A stretch of 39,607 bases of DNA from an uncultured Candidatus Poseidoniales archaeon (GTDB taxonomy: Archaea > Thermoplasmatota > Poseidoniia > Poseidoniales > Thalassarchaeaceae), in the NCBI GenBank assembly GCA_902573015.1, contig CACGIE010000010.1:1-39607 (forward strand), in the 5' to 3' direction. The notes under the pieces were generated by a model. That model worked only from the letters and a program-made list of their open reading frames with translations. It was not told the origin of the DNA and ran no database searches. A program made the translations under genes and the position numbers. Shown here piece by piece: positions 3,419-11,193 of the stretch. The stretch's first letter is position 1. The number at the start of each line of letters is the position of its first letter.

Positions 3419-3446
3419 CCTACATTGGCACACATATGTGATAGAA

Positions 3447-4640
3447 ATGGTAGTTAACGAATCCTCGGAAGAAAATAGACGCATACCCGTCACAGTATTG
3501 ACTGGTTTCCTTGGTTCGGGCAAGACTACCCTACTGAACCACATACTTACCAGTACTGAACACAAGATGAAATTCGCAGTGATCGAGAACGAGTTCGGGG
3601 ATGTCGGGATAGACGAGAATATCCTCGTTGAGAGCTCAGAGGAGAGCATTATCGAGGTGATGAACGGCTGTATCTGTTGTACAGTCAGAGGGGATCTGAC
3701 TGATTTGCTAAAAAGGATGCATGAGAGGATAAAGGACTTCGATGGAGTACTGATAGAGACAACTGGCCTGGCAGACCCGGCACCAGTGGCTCAGACATTT
3801 TTTGTCGATGATGACATCGTCGATAAGTACAAGCTAGACGGAATAATCACAGTCGCCGACGCCAAACACATCATCCAGCACCTCGATGAGGAAAAGCCAG
3901 AAGGTGTCGAAAACGAGTCAGTTGAACAGATTGCGTTCGCGGATCGCATCATGCTGAACAAGATAGACCTCGTTTCAGAGGAGGAGCTCGAAGAGGTCGA
4001 AAGCAAAATCAAGTCGATCAACAGGTTCGCACCAATGTATCACACTGAGAACAGCATCATCGATCCGGTGAATCTGATCAACATAGGATCATTCGACTTA
4101 GAGAAGACCCTAGAGATGGATCCAGAGTTCCTAGACACCGAAGCCGAGCACGAGCATGATGACCGTGTAACATCAACCAGTTCCAAGTTCGAGGGAGCAC
4201 TCAATGTGAACAAACTCGAGAGATGGATAGGGGAGCTGATGCAAACCAAGGGCGAGGACTTGTTCAGATACAAGGGAGTCCTAGCCGTCAAGGGTATGGA
4301 TCAGAAATTCGTCTTCCAGGGTGTGCATATGCTGTTCGGAGGGGGCTTCAGTTCCGAGGTAGCGCCTTGGAAGGAAGGTGAGACTAGGGAGTGCCGATTC
4401 GTCTTCATAGGTCGAGATCTGGATCACGAAGAACTCCAGCAAGGACTGATGGACTGCAAGGCAGAGGAACTCAGATTCAAGGTTGGTGACACCGTTTACG
4501 CTAATATCGGCGAGTTCACAGAAGGCAGGATCCTGAAATGCTGGGATGAAGGCAACCCGTATCGAGTAGAAATCCAGAACGAGGAGAGGTCAAATGTTTG
4601 GGTCCCCATAGACAGCAACGACTACGTCATCCCCGGATGA
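3447..4640 (+). CDS. CobW/COG0523-family metallochaperone GTPase
   Basis: A G3E-family P-loop GTPase of 397 residues. Walker A is GFLGSGKTT (20-28), the switch region is ENEFGDVGID, the family metal motif CxCC is at C75/C77/C78 (NGCICCTVRGDL), and NKIDL is the guanine motif. A His/Asp stretch (EAEHEHDDR) lies in the middle and the CobW_C domain follows (GRDLDHEELQQGL). The family hands metals, often zinc, to client enzymes or helps cobalamin synthesis; a few kb from a zinc-type importer, zinc is the likelier cargo (inference). About 60 extra C-terminal residues (KVGDTVYANIGEF onward) look like a small beta domain. I prefer the ATG at 3447; an in-frame GTG at 3438 adds three residues. Confidence 0.88.
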   Translation: MVVNESSEENRRIPVTVLTGFLGSGKTTLLNHILTSTEHKMKFAVIENEFGDVGIDENILVESSEESIIEVMNGCICCTVRGDLTDLLKRMHERIKDFDGVLIETTGLADPAPVAQTFFVDDDIVDKYKLDGIITVADAKHIIQHLDEEKPEGVENESVEQIAFADRIMLNKIDLVSEEELEEVESKIKSINRFAPMYHTENSIIDPVNLINIGSFDLEKTLEMDPEFLDTEAEHEHDDRVTSTSSKFEGALNVNKLERWIGELMQTKGEDLFRYKGVLAVKGMDQKFVFQGVHMLFGGGFSSEVAPWKEGETRECRFVFIGRDLDHEELQQGLMDCKAEELRFKVGDTVYANIGEFTEGRILKCWDEGNPYRVEIQNEERSNVWVPIDSNDYVIPG

Positions 4641-5616: not shown

Positions 5617-6549
5617 CTATCTTGCAAGGGGGTCCGTTCTGAAAAGAGGAAGAATGACTAGCTGAATTAGTGCTACTACAAGAAAAATAGATGCCGAGGT
5701 TAGAGCTATTGTGGAGCCCGTGCCAGTCCTCAACTCCGCAGAGACATAAATCCCGATTATTGTGGATGATAGTCCGAATACCTGCGCCCATATGAGGCAA
5801 GATCGGAAGCTCCTTGATACGATCTGAGAAGTCGCAGCGGGAGTAACCAAGAGGGCGGTAACCAGGAGAGCCCCAACAAACTGCACCATGCTTACCACTA
5901 CTATGGCAGTGACTACGCTGAATGTCCTACCTATTCTCCTAACAGGGATGCCCTGGATCTGCACGGAAATCGGGTCGATTGCCGTTGCCAGCAAGACATG
6001 GCGGAAAGTTCCTAGGAACCCCATAGAGAAAATGCTCATCAAGACAATGATTTCGAAGCTTTCATCATAGATAAGCAGGATATTTCCAAACAAATAACCC
6101 TCCACAGTATGGGTGATTCCACCCCCCCAATAAGACAGACCAAACAGTCCCAATGCCAGCACCCCTGTCGAGAAAATCGCAATCGCTGCATCCCCTGTCA
6201 GTATTCCCCTGGACTGCAACTCGTGGATTAGCAGTGATGAAATCACACTGAAGAACAATGCATACCAAAGAGGAGATGCGGCGCCCAGTACGAGCCCTAC
6301 TGCAACCCCGCCGAATGTGACATGGGCCAAGCCATCACCCATCAATGCGAGATTCCTAATCAATAGGAATGAGCCTAGATATGCAGCTACCATCGTTACC
6401 AACAAGGCAGCAACGAACGCATTTTGGAAGAGTGGTACTGTGAAGAAAGAGGGAAAAATCTCCCCTGGAACATGTGGGGCTATGCGTTCCAATATCGGGG
6501 ATATTAGAGACATTAGTTCAGCACCGACTCCCATATTAATGATCCACAT
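5617..6549 (-). CDS. znuB: ABC metal-importer permease, ZnuB/MntB type
   Basis: A 310-residue ABC-3 family membrane protein with about eight or nine hydrophobic helices. Family features are the FLLIRNLALMGDGLAHVTFG segment, the RGILTGDAAIAIFSTG region and a late GALLVTALLVTPAATSQIVS segment. It forms the channel of a Zn/Mn-type importer with the ATPase encoded 19 bp upstream and the binding protein upstream of that; the order is A-C-B along the minus strand. Start ATG 6549; an internal Met (residue 6) is also possible. Metal specificity cannot be read from the permease; zinc is favoured by the His-rich partner proteins. Confidence 0.9.
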   Translation of the reverse strand: MWIINMGVGAELMSLISPILERIAPHVPGEIFPSFFTVPLFQNAFVAALLVTMVAAYLGSFLLIRNLALMGDGLAHVTFGGVAVGLVLGAASPLWYALFFSVISSLLIHELQSRGILTGDAAIAIFSTGVLALGLFGLSYWGGGITHTVEGYLFGNILLIYDESFEIIVLMSIFSMGFLGTFRHVLLATAIDPISVQIQGIPVRRIGRTFSVVTAIVVVSMVQFVGALLVTALLVTPAATSQIVSRSFRSCLIWAQVFGLSSTIIGIYVSAELRTGTGSTIALTSASIFLVVALIQLVILPLFRTDPLAR

Positions 6550-6568: not shown

Positions 6569-7375
6569 TTATTGGTGCTCATGACTATGGTCGTCATGGA
6601 CGTGTATTATCCCTCTCAATCCAGCGAGAGAGGAAAAGTCAGGGACCTCATCTGACGGCCCATCGAATCTAACGCTCCCTTCAAGGTAGACGATTCGATG
6701 AGCCGCCTGTGTTATTGTGGTCAAATCGTGAGAAACCATCAGCACTGTCATATTTTCTTTGTGGCACAGGTCATCTAACAATTTCAGCAGAGAATTCCTC
6801 GAGGGCAGATCCACCCCTACCAGAGGCTCATCCAAGAGTAGGAAATCGGCTTCAGATGCCAGTGCTCTAGCGATTACTGAACGTTGAAGTTGACCTCCCG
6901 ATAGTCTTCTTACGTCAGTATCCGCCTTATCGACGAGTCCGACCATTTCCAATGCCCTGTTAACTCGCGCATTCCTTTCTGAGTTGCCCAGAATGAACAT
7001 ATTCTGCGGATTTAGAGTACCCAATCTAACCAGTTCTCTCACAGTGATTCGAATATTGCTAGACAGGTTTGAAGCGGCTTGTGGCACCCACCCTATTCTT
7101 CCATGATCAGAGTTCGAGAAACGCTCTTTTCCGTATACTCGGACTATGCCACCCGTGTTGGGGACAGGTTCCAGAAGCCCCAGGATGGTCAGAAGAAGTG
7201 TCGTTTTACCGCTCCCATTCGGGCCGACCAATCCTACGAACTCGCCCTTTCTGATTTCGAGGTCCACATCTTGGATCACTATTTCGCCAGAACGCGCTAC
7301 AGATAGGTCACTAATCTGCAGGAGGGGGGTCGTCGACTCCACTCCTTTTGCAGAACCCAGCCCCATCTCAAGCAT
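6569..7375 (-). CDS. znuC: ABC metal-importer ATPase, ZnuC/MntA type
   Basis: A 268-residue ABC ATPase with Walker A GPNGSGKTT, Q-loop VPQAASNL, signature LSGGQLQRSVIARAL, Walker B FLLLDEPLVGVD and H-loop SHD. It powers import by the adjacent permease. The C-terminus ends in a His/Asp tail (HVHDDHSHEHQ), a smaller echo of the His-rich binding protein and compatible with cytoplasmic metal sensing or buffering (inference). The start is ATG 7375. The gene sits 54 bp downstream of the binding-protein gene, presumably in one transcript. Confidence 0.92.
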   Translation of the reverse strand: MLEMGLGSAKGVESTTPLLQISDLSVARSGEIVIQDVDLEIRKGEFVGLVGPNGSGKTTLLLTILGLLEPVPNTGGIVRVYGKERFSNSDHGRIGWVPQAASNLSSNIRITVRELVRLGTLNPQNMFILGNSERNARVNRALEMVGLVDKADTDVRRLSGGQLQRSVIARALASEADFLLLDEPLVGVDLPSRNSLLKLLDDLCHKENMTVLMVSHDLTTITQAAHRIVYLEGSVRFDGPSDEVPDFSSLAGLRGIIHVHDDHSHEHQ

Positions 7376-7429: not shown

Positions 7430-10400
7430 CTAGCAACCTAGGCCAGTTTTCAGACCCTCGAGGTTCTTCCTCATCAACGAAAGATAATCATCGTCACTAT
7501 CGATAGGCGGTAGTTCCATGGTATAGAGAGTCTTAACCTCAAGTCCACTGGTCTGTTCCACTATTGCGGCAACTGCATTTGGAGAGGTGTACTCTTCTAC
7601 GAAGAATACTGTGATGCCCTCTTCCTCGATTTTTTCTATTACCTCGAGAATGTCGGCAGCCGATGGCTCTCCTTCTGGATCCAGGCCGTGGACAGTTACA
7701 AATTCCAAACCGTATCTCTTAGCCATGTAAGCATAGGCGTTGTGATTGGCAGCAACTGTGGTCCCCGTACAGGTGCTCGTCGAACCGAATGCGGCGTCGA
7801 AGTCTGAATGCAGGGAATCCAACTGTTCCACGAATGCCGCGGCGTTCTCTGTGAAAGCAGCCTCCCCGCTTGGGAATGCTACTATTAGGGCATCTAGTAC
7901 AATGCCGATTTGCTCCTTGTATGAAAGCGGGTCCAGCCAGCTGTGTGGATCAAAGTCGAATGCTTCGCCTTCACCAGCGACAATCTCCTGTTCCGAGTGG
8001 CCTTCTGTCCACATATGGCCTGCAGCCTCGCAATCAGCCTCGTTGGATTCGTAGTTCTCGTGGGTTGTTGTGTTGTGGCAACCTCCTTCTCCTTCGTGAT
8101 CGCCATGATCATCATCCTCGATCCACATGTGGCCTGCAGCCTCGCAATCAGCCTCGTTTGATTCGTAGTTCTCGTGGGTTGTTAGGTTGTGGCAGACTCC
8201 TTCGTGGTGGTCATCTTGACCGCCAGGCCCGCTGTTCCCAGCCACCCACATCAATCCGGCTCCCTCGCAATCCGCTTGATTTTGATAGGACATGTTGACT
8301 GTATGAGTGCTGATGTCGTAGCAAACCATAGCAGAATCGTCACCGTGGTCACCGTGGTCACCGTGGTCACCGTGGTCACCGTGGTCACCGTGGCCACCCT
8401 CACCCATTAGAATGAAGAATTCCACGCCCATGGGCAGAGCGAAACCGTAATCCCCCTCTTCCTCTATGTGAATAGTAGCATAACCAACGGGGCCATCATG
8501 CTCGTCGTGCTCTTCGTGGTCATCTCCCATAAGCTCGAGGAATGCGGATAGTTCTGACATGTTCAGTAGTTGGTTACCATCGGTATCTGACATGTTGAAC
8601 ATCTCCATGAGGACTTCCTCCTCATCGTGGTGCTCGTCATGGTCGCCATGGTCATCGTGATCGTCGTGATCATCCTCAGTCCCGTTATCCTCGTCGTGCT
8701 CGTCGTGGTCATCATGGTCGTCATCCTCGATAATCCATCCATTCCAGAACTCATCCCAAGAGATGTTACTGTCGTTGTTCGCGTCGAAATGCTCCATGAC
8801 CGTTCCTGGCGTCATTTCGACGTAATCTTCCTCGAACTCCTCTACAAGTTCCATGAAGGTCATCAGTTCTGACATGTCCAGTAGTTGGTTCCCATCGACA
8901 TCTGACATGTTGAACATCTCCATGAGGACTTCCTCCTCATCGTGGTGATCGTCATGGTCGTCATGGTCATCGTGATCGTCGTGATCATCCTCAGTCCCGT
9001 TTTCCTCATCGTGATCGTCGTGATCATCATGGTCGTCATCCTCTGCAGTCCAAGCGGCCCAGATTTCATCCCATGAGAGATTGCTGTCATTGTTAGTGTC
9101 AAAGCTCTCCATGGCCTCTTCTGCAGTCATGTGATCATCGTGGTCATCGTGATCGCCATGATCACCATGGTCATCGTGGTCGTCGTGACCGTCATCGTGA
9201 TCGCCATGATCACCATGGTCATCGTGGTCGTCGTGACCGTCATCGTGGTCATCGTGGTCATCGTGACCGTGCGCATCGGCTCCTTCCTGGGCGATAGGCT
9301 CTATTGGATTACCAGCAGAGTCATGCAGGTAATGTTGGTCACGCTCAAATTCCGTTGGTACGTGCTGAGCATACATTGCAAGCCCAGAAATTCCAGCCGT
9401 ATCAATCGTGAAGGTAGAGTCGTCACCCGATCCGACGTGCAGCTCGAAGCATGAACCCGCTGAATCAATTGAGGACATCATCTCGCCATCTTCCACAATT
9501 GTGCATGAATCTCCTTCGATCAAGGCCTCTACTCCATCTTCTAATGTGTGCATTGTTGCCTCAGTAGGGGTGTCAGTCGGGATTAGGACCAGGCGCATAG
9601 TAGGGTCGGCGTATGCTCCGTCAACTTTCTGCATCGACCATGTGTGGGTAGAATCGCTCATCGAGAACATTCCAGCCCACTCGAATGGTCCAGCACCGTG
9701 ACCGTGGTCATGGTGGTGATGGGCATGCCCACCAGGCATCTGCAGAGCTACCATGTTGAAATCGTGCATGTCCTCCGATTCGAATTCTATTACGTGCTCT
9801 CCCTCTTCCAGGTGGAAGATCATGATAACTGTCCCTGTTGGGCATCCTGCAGGGTTCTCAATCGTCTGTTCGGCAGCAGCATGATTGTGCCCGTCATGGT
9901 GATCGTCGTGATCGTCGTGATCGTCGTGATCGTCGTGATCGTCGTGAGCGTCATCGTGGTCGTCGTGACCGTCATCGTGGTCGTCGTGACCGTCATCGTG
10001 GTCATCGTGGTCGTCGTGACCGTCATCGTGGTCGTCGTGATCCTCCTCATCACCTTCGGGGATCGTCAACGAATGTGCCACGCGCTCTGCATGAATCTCC
10101 ACCTCTCCAGCGTGTGACTCCTCGTCCGCAAGCATGACTGCTTCGTAGGGGCCCTCCGACAGTGTCTCACACAGGTCTTCGATCAATATGGACCCGTAGT
10201 CCAATGAGACCTCTCCTGAGGGCATTGCATGGGTCTGGATTGCGGTCGGCGCATCGTTACCCAGGGCATCCATTGTCACCTCGACCCATGGTTCCAGGTT
10301 CAATCCGTGATAGAAGAACAGGTCTGCATCCATGAATGCCACGTAGTCGGCCACTGTTGGCTCGAAGTCGTGAAGAGGAACGTTCTCTGGGATGAGCATC

Positions 10401-10672
10401 TGCACGTTTAGGTGCTCGCCTCCTACTGCGGATACTAGTTGCTCTACGTGATAAGTCGAAACCAGAACATCTCCGAGAATCTGCACCTCTGCAGTCCCGT
10501 TATCCGATGTGGTTCCATTTTCCACCGCGGTGTTGTTTTCGTCCATCGAATCATCAATCACGTCTTCGATCAAGTCCTCGACTTCCTCCACCGATTCGTC
10601 CTCGAGACATCCTGCGACGCTCGAGAAAACCAGTAACAGGCTCGCCAAAATTGCCATTCTGCTGTTGTTCAT
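7430..10672 (-). CDS. znuA: Giant ZnuA-like metal-binding lipoprotein with His/Asp, EF-hand and Cys-module insertion
   Basis: This 1080-residue protein is an ABC solute-binding protein of the zinc/manganese class split by a huge insertion. A signal peptide with lipobox VAGC (C22) is followed by an acidic linker (23-62) and the N-lobe (63-150) with metal ligand H101 (PLHDFEPT). The C-lobe (900-1080) carries H910 (FDPHSWLDP), H977 (AANHNAYAY) and E1026/E1027. Normal family members are about 300 residues with a short His loop. Here about 700 residues sit between the lobes: His/Asp blocks at 208-265, 467-514, 546-578, 646-682 and 761-779; a beta-rich region (about 270-450) with a His cluster (316-326); four EF-hand loops (525-536, 591-602, 630-641, 696-707); and three Cys modules (C784, C827, C865). 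About 80 His fall in residues 187-780. It probably captures Zn(II) outside the membrane and passes it to the permease; Ca binding by the EF loops is likely. The reading frame is intact and a TATA box lies about 24 bp before the ATG. Confidence 0.93.
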   Translation of the reverse strand: MNNSRMAILASLLLVFSSVAGCLEDESVEEVEDLIEDVIDDSMDENNTAVENGTTSDNGTAEVQILGDVLVSTYHVEQLVSAVGGEHLNVQMLIPENVPLHDFEPTVADYVAFMDADLFFYHGLNLEPWVEVTMDALGNDAPTAIQTHAMPSGEVSLDYGSILIEDLCETLSEGPYEAVMLADEESHAGEVEIHAERVAHSLTIPEGDEEDHDDHDDGHDDHDDHDDGHDDHDDGHDDHDDAHDDHDDHDDHDDHDDHHDGHNHAAAEQTIENPAGCPTGTVIMIFHLEEGEHVIEFESEDMHDFNMVALQMPGGHAHHHHDHGHGAGPFEWAGMFSMSDSTHTWSMQKVDGAYADPTMRLVLIPTDTPTEATMHTLEDGVEALIEGDSCTIVEDGEMMSSIDSAGSCFELHVGSGDDSTFTIDTAGISGLAMYAQHVPTEFERDQHYLHDSAGNPIEPIAQEGADAHGHDDHDDHDDGHDDHDDHGDHGDHDDGHDDHDDHGDHGDHDDHDDHMTAEEAMESFDTNNDSNLSWDEIWAAWTAEDDDHDDHDDHDEENGTEDDHDDHDDHDDHDDHHDEEEVLMEMFNMSDVDGNQLLDMSELMTFMELVEEFEEDYVEMTPGTVMEHFDANNDSNISWDEFWNGWIIEDDDHDDHDEHDEDNGTEDDHDDHDDHGDHDEHHDEEEVLMEMFNMSDTDGNQLLNMSELSAFLELMGDDHEEHDEHDGPVGYATIHIEEEGDYGFALPMGVEFFILMGEGGHGDHGDHGDHGDHGDHGDDSAMVCYDISTHTVNMSYQNQADCEGAGLMWVAGNSGPGGQDDHHEGVCHNLTTHENYESNEADCEAAGHMWIEDDDHGDHEGEGGCHNTTTHENYESNEADCEAAGHMWTEGHSEQEIVAGEGEAFDFDPHSWLDPLSYKEQIGIVLDALIVAFPSGEAAFTENAAAFVEQLDSLHSDFDAAFGSTSTCTGTTVAANHNAYAYMAKRYGLEFVTVHGLDPEGEPSAADILEVIEKIEEEGITVFFVEEYTSPNAVAAIVEQTSGLEVKTLYTMELPPIDSDDDYLSLMRKNLEGLKTGLGC
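8009..8196. repeat. Tandem duplication of a Cys-module in the binding-protein gene
   Basis: 8009-8082 and 8123-8196 are nearly identical (offset 114 bp = 38 codons). They encode the second and third copies of the module CHN-x-TTHENYESNEADC. The few differences lie mainly at one edge, so the duplication is recent. Confidence 0.85.
8336..8392. repeat. 9-bp tandem repeat encoding (His-Gly-Asp)n
   Basis: GTGGTCACC recurs about six times with little change, giving consecutive HGD tripeptides (residues 761-779 of the binding protein). Confidence 0.9.
8528..9103. repeat. Duplicated EF-hand pair modules, 315-bp offset
   Basis: The segments 8843-9103 and 8528-8788 are homologous with a 315-bp (105-codon) offset; for example the stretch starting at 8591 recurs at 8906. 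Each unit encodes an EF loop, a His/Asp block and a second EF loop. Confidence 0.85.
9131..9274. repeat. Short-period repeats encoding His/Asp block 2
   Basis: Interleaved 9-bp and longer units (CATCGTGGT, CGTCGTGAC and variants) recur; a unit of about 48 bp starting near 9142 is repeated from about 9190. They encode DDH/GDH/DDGH runs (residues 467-514). Confidence 0.85.
9878..10051. repeat. Short-period repeats encoding His/Asp block 1
   Basis: 9-bp units such as GATCGTCGT in direct tandem, then 21-bp units around CGTCGTGACCGTCATCGTGGT. They encode DDH and DDGH repeats (residues 208-265), the longest His/Asp run in the protein. Confidence 0.9.
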
Positions 10673-10761: not shown

Positions 10762-11193
10762 ATGACCCAGATAATATCATTCAGCGCAGACACAGATTTC
10801 GCTAAAGATCTAGACAATATGATTTCCAAGTCCGGCTACAGCAATCGAAGCCGTTTCATTCGAGATGCATCGCTATTCTACGCTGAGATGCAGCAGAGAG
10901 GGGACTTGGAGAATATGGATGGGGAACTGACAATCGAGGGGCATCTGGTCGTCTATTACCAGCATGACCATGGAGATAGTCAGAGGCTTTTGGACCTGCG
11001 GCACTCCGAACTAATCGAAGTGGCATCATACAGCCATAGCAGTCTCAAGCACAGTCACTCGTGCGTGGACGTTCTTCAGGTAAAGGGCAAAGCGGCTAAC
11101 ATCAGGTCCGTGATATCCCGCCTCAATAATACTCCTCACGTGGACAAGGTTTCTTTCATCATCGCTCCGATGCGTGAGGATGGATGCTGCTAA
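10762..11193 (+). CDS. nikR: NikR-like metal-responsive ribbon-helix-helix regulator
   Basis: A 143-residue protein with an N-terminal ribbon-helix-helix domain (ISFSADTDFAKDLDNMI, GYSNRSRFIRDA) and a C-terminal ACT-like metal domain, as in NikR. Relative to my recollection of E. coli NikR, H81, H92 and C101 could match ligands H76, H87 and C95, but there is a one-residue insertion, the H89 position is not His, and extra His occur at 97 and 99. The protein ends in Cys-Cys. It is divergently transcribed from the importer across an 89-bp gap, so it most likely controls the importer and itself in response to a metal. Whether it senses nickel, as NikR does, or zinc, as the neighbour suggests, is open. 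Confidence 0.85.
   Translation: MTQIISFSADTDFAKDLDNMISKSGYSNRSRFIRDASLFYAEMQQRGDLENMDGELTIEGHLVVYYQHDHGDSQRLLDLRHSELIEVASYSHSSLKHSHSCVDVLQVKGKAANIRSVISRLNNTPHVDKVSFIIAPMREDGCC

Follow-up and report, generated by a model that had tools for sequence, protein, structure and literature searches.

An enlarged, modular histidine loop in the ZnuA-type lipoproteins of Poseidoniales archaea as a candidate metal-capture arm

The stretch of DNA analysed here (the window) is one entire contig of 39,607 nucleotides, CACGIE010000010.1, from the 63% complete genome of an uncultured Candidatus Poseidoniales (Marine Group II) archaeon. It encodes a ZnuA-type substrate-binding lipoprotein of 1080 amino acids (aa) that carries a giant insertion, followed by genes for an ATP-binding cassette (ABC) ATPase and permease. 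A sequence-only reading had proposed a frame of this length, though without its strand; the open reading frame (ORF) is real and uninterrupted, and lies at 7430..10672 on the minus strand, as do all features of the protein given below. It opens with a signal and a lipobox, FSSVAGC, ending at Cys22 (10607..10672), and an LAGC or VAGC motif is likewise present in relatives. The N-terminal lobe (residues 66-149; 10226..10477) corresponds to positions 1-76 of the Pfam ZnuA profile, and the C-terminal lobe (residues 900-1080; 7430..7975) to positions 77-262 and to the aligned parts of Lmb and AdcA in the PDB. The profile (PF01297) scores 195.7 bits against a cut-off of 29, covering both lobes in a match split in two, with positions 1-76 at 10244-10468 and positions 77-262 at 7445-8146.

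The ligands named in the sequence-only reading were correctly placed, in lobes that are indeed intact: H101 in (V)PLHDFEP, H910 in DPHSWLDP, H977 in AANHNAY, and E1026/E1027. A PVHDY/PLHDF-type motif surrounds the first ligand in all 45 full-length relatives, and the ligand positions (three His and a carboxylate) are conserved in relatives. The closest PDB proteins found by phmmer are streptococcal Lmb and AdcA, and E1026 aligns opposite the first carboxylate of their AED/EEN motif, which makes the metal site one of the three-His-plus-Glu (H3E) type. Scores fell below the NCBIfam cut-offs for AztC (124.8 vs 350), AdcA (73.7 vs 700) and E. coli-type ZnuA (PRK09545, 42.5 vs 268). Profile score, ligand set, lipobox and an operon with an ABC-3 permease and ATPase are all as expected of cluster A-I/PF01297 proteins; judged by its sequence, this is a genuine cluster A-I (ZnuA-type) binding lipoprotein, with a predicted affinity for zinc.

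The two lobes are about 750 residues apart (residues 150-900), and the insertion sits where an ordinary ZnuA has its His loop. This region contains 94 His, 145 Asp, 89 Glu and 10 Cys, whereas the composition of ten neighbouring proteins would predict about 16 His; the earlier estimate of about 80 His in residues 187-780 is borne out by a count of 82. The insert had been described as a mixture of His/Asp repeats, EF-hand loops and Cys modules. The repeats are present, together with four EF loops and three Cys modules, but that description overlooked conserved, folded-looking blocks, including a module of 142 aa at 9266-9691. From the N-terminal side, a first His/Asp tract (residues 206-264; 9881..10057) leads into beta-block B, GTVIMIFHLEEGEHVIEFE...GGHAHHHHDHGHG (residues 265-327; 9692..9880), which bears the motif FHLEEGEHVIEFE...GGHAHHHH. 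The 142-aa module (EWxG ... DP ... HxPxEF ... HxH; residues 328-469; 9266..9691) comes next, and then a second His/Asp tract (residues 468-514; 9131..9271). Two EF-hand pairs (loops 525-536, 591-602, 630-641 and 696-707; 8537..9130) score above the Pfam cut-offs for EF-hand_1 (40.7 vs 25.4), EF-hand_6 (41.8 vs 25) and EF-hand_7 (40.7 vs 30), and within the same interval further His/Asp tracts separate the loops (residues 544-581 and 649-686). Beta-block C, ATIHIEEEGDYGFALP...MGEGGH (residues 728-758; 8399..8491), with the sequence IHIEEEGDYGFALP, precedes three Cys modules of about 25 residues each, C[HY][ND]...Y...DCE.AG.MW (residues 784-888; 8009..8323), which are also found in relatives. 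The His/Asp tracts amount to 193 residues, and tandem repeats are present at the DNA level. Twelve N-x-S/T sequons lie in the insert (8066-9091, minus strand; residues 528-869), mostly in the EF-hand and Cys modules, and glycosylation through them is possible.

Searches at the level of family, order and phylum, a comparison of homologues that the sequence-only reading had proposed, show that related genomes share the insertion. With PF01297 as query, 75 of the 148 family genomes and 181 of the 319 order genomes yielded split and enlarged ZnuA genes. Every one of the 45 full-length Poseidoniales proteins contains an insert, ranging from 190 to 815 aa with 23-94 His, and no insert-free full-length form was found among them; L073, a minimal form, has 524 aa. 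Three matching genomes from another family of the same class (G526, G447 and G452) also carry the insertion. Most other Thermoplasmatota in a phylum-wide sample have an ordinary ZnuA of about 300-360 aa; a few have longer frames, and the inserts of L128-L130, L133 and L138 are of a different kind. Those of L128, L129, L130 and L138 are beta-rich stretches of 120-150 aa with a short His tail at the end, and perhaps represent an intermediate state; beta-block B gave only a weak profile match (probability 27%) to the inserts of L128 and L129. The insertion is apparently undescribed in the literature that we searched, and a scan of viral contigs gave no match. About half of the Poseidoniales genomes, several of them more than 90% complete, have no PF01297 match, which would fit the published absence from deep genera.

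While the lobes are conserved, the content of the insert turns over. On a 43-row maximum-likelihood tree built from the lobes, the 142-aa module changed state at least 11 times, with L081 counted among the proteins without it even though it has a divergent copy (G180), and the EF-hands and Cys modules each changed at least five times. Such repeated gain and loss shows that the insert has often been rebuilt while the lobes stayed in place. The inserts of L066 and L076 hold a different extra domain with WSWYW...W motifs (around residues 355-480), and that of L035 holds another beta-rich stretch; the region is a landing site for varied modules.

The inserted blocks B and C and the 142-aa module are under strong purifying selection. 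Between the window and L032 (Poseidoniales AH-287-M04), the closest pair, the ratio of nonsynonymous to synonymous substitution (dN/dS) is 0.03 for block B, 0 for block C and 0.06 for the module, compared with 0.07-0.08 for the lobes. Against L055, L056 and L059, the proportion of nonsynonymous differences (pN) is 0.11-0.13 in the module and 0.21-0.29 in the lobes; synonymous sites are near saturation in both, so the likeness of the module cannot be put down to a recent exchange. Across relatives, the codons of the His/Asp tracts are mixed (CAT 648/CAC 692; GAT 1006/GAC 1045), a pattern in line with selection for the amino acids themselves rather than recent slippage by itself.

The 142-aa module is unknown to the curated libraries: for neither window positions 9236-9820 nor a standalone protein (P0004) did we find a Pfam family at E<1 or an NCBIfam family at E<0.1, and a PDB sequence search returned only chance-like matches of the His-tag type. 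Nine module sequences share ten invariant columns (EW.G, DP, H.P.EF and a late His). In 30 relatives, the module is confined to ZnuA genes. A nine-row module profile, run over 390 sampled Thermoplasmatota genomes, identified 18 places, all in the class Poseidoniia; 16 are in frames already known as ZnuA, and the other two (G072 and a second copy in G283) are on contigs where the ZnuA gene is broken into several frames.

Haloarchaea and bacteria were searched by tblastn of plasmid records, through which alone the bacterial spread was sampled. The haloarchaeal matches reach E values down to 1e-9. In Halorubrum, Halorientalis and Haloarcula, the module lies in the His loop of ZnuA, flanked by His/Glu-rich tracts, with ZnuC and ZnuB genes adjoining. 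In Natrinema and Halosolutus, it forms a small lipoprotein that consists of the module and His-rich ends (L154:3872-4432 and L155:3875-4426), the Natrinema copy being directly downstream of urease genes. On Pantoea and Paraburkholderia plasmids, the module is found within COG0523 GTPases, between Pfam cobW and CobW_C (L157:3347-4699, L177:2593-3696 and L178:3001-3330), at the position of a short His stretch, EAEHEHDD, in the window's own CobW protein. In Pantoea soli, the match falls in an unannotated stretch that has a short ORF for a GTP-binding protein beside it and a gene for a nickel transporter nearby. On an Alicyclobacillus plasmid, the module interrupts a membrane protein after HRHGQSHDHE (L156:3782-4693), and the genes clustered with it include those for cation transporters and metal-sensing regulators. 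Since the module recurs in the His loops of other metal-handling proteins, a metal role is likely, and its distribution argues for metal loading in particular. ZepA was considered as a relative of the module and set aside; compared by description only, neither its domain layout nor its motif supports a relationship. We tentatively suggest, as a proposal that may or may not prove right, that the module is an undescribed mobile metal-loading domain, which has entered the His-rich loops of metal-handling proteins repeatedly and in unrelated families (ZnuA-type binding proteins of two archaeal classes, bacterial COG0523 GTPases and the membrane protein of a metal-transport cluster) and which is also borne by small lipoproteins; in Poseidoniales, it and other modules would make a scavenger and receiver of a single chain.

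The genes around the window's ZnuA are those of a metal importer. A ZnuC-type ABC ATPase (6569..7375, minus strand) and a ZnuB-type ABC-3 metal permease (5617..6549, minus strand) accompany it, and the COG0523/CobW GTPase with the short His loop (3438..4640, plus strand) is close by, as such a GTPase often is near this operon. A NikR-like regulator with ribbon-helix-helix and NikR_C domains is encoded divergently (10762..11193, plus strand). This regulator lies divergently upstream of ZnuA-ZnuC-ZnuB in 46 of 49 order-level neighbourhoods; the three in which none was seen are L089, L090 and L091, at least two of which stop at a contig end, and the L081 neighbourhood shows no ZnuB. Its cluster of His and Cys residues (H81, H92, H97, H99 and C101) is conserved, and it has a C-terminal CC as well. 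The score is below the NCBIfam NikR cut-off (54.6 vs 105 bits), and the ligand spacing is shifted relative to the E. coli NikR sequence, a comparison that serves as a lead only. The regulator is possibly a zinc- rather than nickel-responsive relative of NikR.

Taken together, we think it probable that the variable His loop, which lies between the N-lobe and the second ligand His, has grown into a modular metal-capture arm on a ZnuA-type lipoprotein, with metal binding and hand-over by the arm as predicted functions. In the arm, numerous His/Asp sites, weak and exchangeable, would bind Zn(II) or some other divalent metal, as would at least one defined site within the 142-aa module. Bound in this way, metal could reach a higher local concentration and be captured at a higher rate at the membrane surface, and the arm would then deliver ions in cis to the buried H3E site, from which ZnuBC would import them. 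The EF-hands, which are expected to be Ca-saturated in seawater, and the Cys modules would serve as structural spacers. Hand-over in cis is proposed on the precedent of PhtD, a separate surface scavenger whose transfer of zinc to AdcAII in trans has been demonstrated (PMC3842936). Calcium can tune zinc affinity in S100A12 (PMC4762610); a similar effect in the Poseidoniales protein would be speculation. For Poseidoniales, zinc uptake is a proposed adaptation to surface water poor in zinc (PMC6461757), and a capture arm would thus be ecologically relevant.

Several observations weigh against a capture arm. Seawater Ca and Mg could compete for the Asp-rich tracts. The full-length structure prediction, made with eight relatives supplied, has a predicted local distance difference test (pLDDT) score of 36 overall and a predicted template modelling (pTM) score of 0.26; the Cys modules are its best-modelled region, and docking of the lobes is unreadable. 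The 142-aa module is predicted as beta-rich with two helices at a pLDDT of 52 (about 65-78 in the core), and a PDB fold search with this model gave no significant match (best E 0.05). The patchy presence of the module on the lobe tree implies that it is not essential, and the NikR-like regulator does not fix which metal is handled. In addition, known ZnuA His loops have only micromolar affinity for zinc, 3-4 orders of magnitude below that of the main site (PMC4542158), and the loop of ZrgA, which takes up 4-5 mostly low-affinity zinc ions, is dispensable, its deletion not abolishing function (PMC9820375).

The sequence-only reading had favoured a different use of the same ligands, a high-capacity zinc store at the surface that would be filled in times of plenty and drawn down by the importer. 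The great number of ligands, with as many as 94 His, fits such a store, as do the capacity of long His stretches for many ions, with HypB cited in PMC2770081 as holding 18 Ni per dimer, and the reported presence of a zinc transporter in most Poseidoniales together with its absence from deep genera, which meet higher zinc levels (PMC6461757). However, if the sites resemble the micromolar sites of known loops, the store would be mostly empty at the free zinc levels of the zinc-poor open-ocean surface unless affinity were raised, and capture with hand-over is thus the better reading. Moreover, the same-genus relatives L009, L010, L012 and L073 manage with few HDD/DDH steps and 23-26 His, and a mere store would not need conserved, folded-looking blocks. 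We therefore regard storage as unlikely, and would soften the earlier term, a storage-plus-import machine, to a capture-plus-import arm, as a predicted function. It is unlikely, too, that the transported metal is nickel, cobalt or manganese, with the arm working in the same way. The divergent NikR-like regulator in nearly all loci, the standalone module lipoprotein adjoining urease genes and the occurrence of the module close to a nickel-transporter gene in Pantoea soli all point in that direction, but three His plus Glu is a zinc-type ligand set, manganese-type binding proteins usually having fewer His ligands. The closest solved relatives, Lmb and AdcA, are zinc proteins, the His/Cys spacing of the regulator differs from that of NikR, and the COG0523 neighbour also speaks for zinc.

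Other explanations would deny the insert a role in metal handling altogether. A surface spacer or adhesive arm, stabilised by Ca and used in particle attachment, would leave the His/Asp tracts as incidental charge-rich linkers; it would account for the EF-hands and for weak matches to the Cys modules in other large frames of related genomes, and the close relative Lmb has been described as a laminin-binding adhesin (PMC3691195). Yet the position in the metal loop, the enrichment in His and the occurrence of the 142-aa module mostly in metal-handling contexts make this quite improbable. Alternatively, a tolerant loop might have grown through replication slippage and recombination without having any function, as the spread of insert lengths (190-815 aa), the nearly random gain and loss of the module on the tree and the tandem repeats in the DNA might suggest. 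We consider neutral expansion very unlikely, as the inserted blocks change more slowly than the lobes under strong purifying selection, all 45 full-length Poseidoniales proteins retain an insert, and His and Asp are kept with mixed synonymous codons. Finally, an artefact of assembly or binning is hardly credible. Repeats do frequently break contigs in relatives, leaving the N and C parts of ZnuA on different contigs, but L032, an independent record, has the same architecture (97% identical lobes and a 92% identical permease), and the insertion is present in a closed, single-contig genome (G182/L086). Since relatives share the insertion, the objection that the sequence-only reading had raised against itself, a chimeric assembly with relatives lacking the insert, fails.

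The Poseidoniales protein can be set beside several known systems. It resembles ZnuA/AdcA/Lmb proteins (PF01297) in its two-lobe sequence, ligand positions, lipoprotein signal, His-loop site and ABC-3 permease and ATPase. However, their published zinc-specific His/acidic regions span 12-50 residues (PMC4542158), whereas those of Poseidoniales span 190-815 and include domains, EF-hands and Cys modules. What the His loop does in zinc-binding proteins has been termed enigmatic (PMC9820375). Here, across abundant ocean archaea, the loop is most of the protein and includes a domain in common with cytosolic metal chaperones, so that the function of a His loop could be approached through an extreme example from nature, a minimal form (L073) and a domain that can be separated. 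The haloarchaeal ZnuA proteins of Halorubrum, Halorientalis and Haloarcula (about 511-529 aa, on megaplasmids) have the same module in the same loop and a ZnuC/ZnuB operon, with GTPase genes in two of three, but their insert is about 200 aa, its repeats are Glu/His rather than Asp/His, and EF-hands and Cys modules are absent. COG0523/CobW GTPases with a His stretch (PMC2770081) are comparable through the Pantoea and Paraburkholderia proteins, in which the module falls between the GTPase domain and CobW_C; these are cytosolic GTPases of unrelated fold, with the loop module alone in common. The remaining parallels are drawn from role. The exoprotein ZepA and the AztD/AztC pair exemplify additional extracytoplasmic zinc carriers tied to zinc import (PMC10957091, PMC7463823), but they are different proteins, with no claim of a sequence relation, and ZepA binds about 1.5 Zn per monomer. 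In streptococci, PhtD is a surface zinc scavenger that supplies a cluster A-I binding protein, AdcAII (PMC3842936); there the scavenger and the receiver are two proteins, whereas in Poseidoniales they would be one chain.

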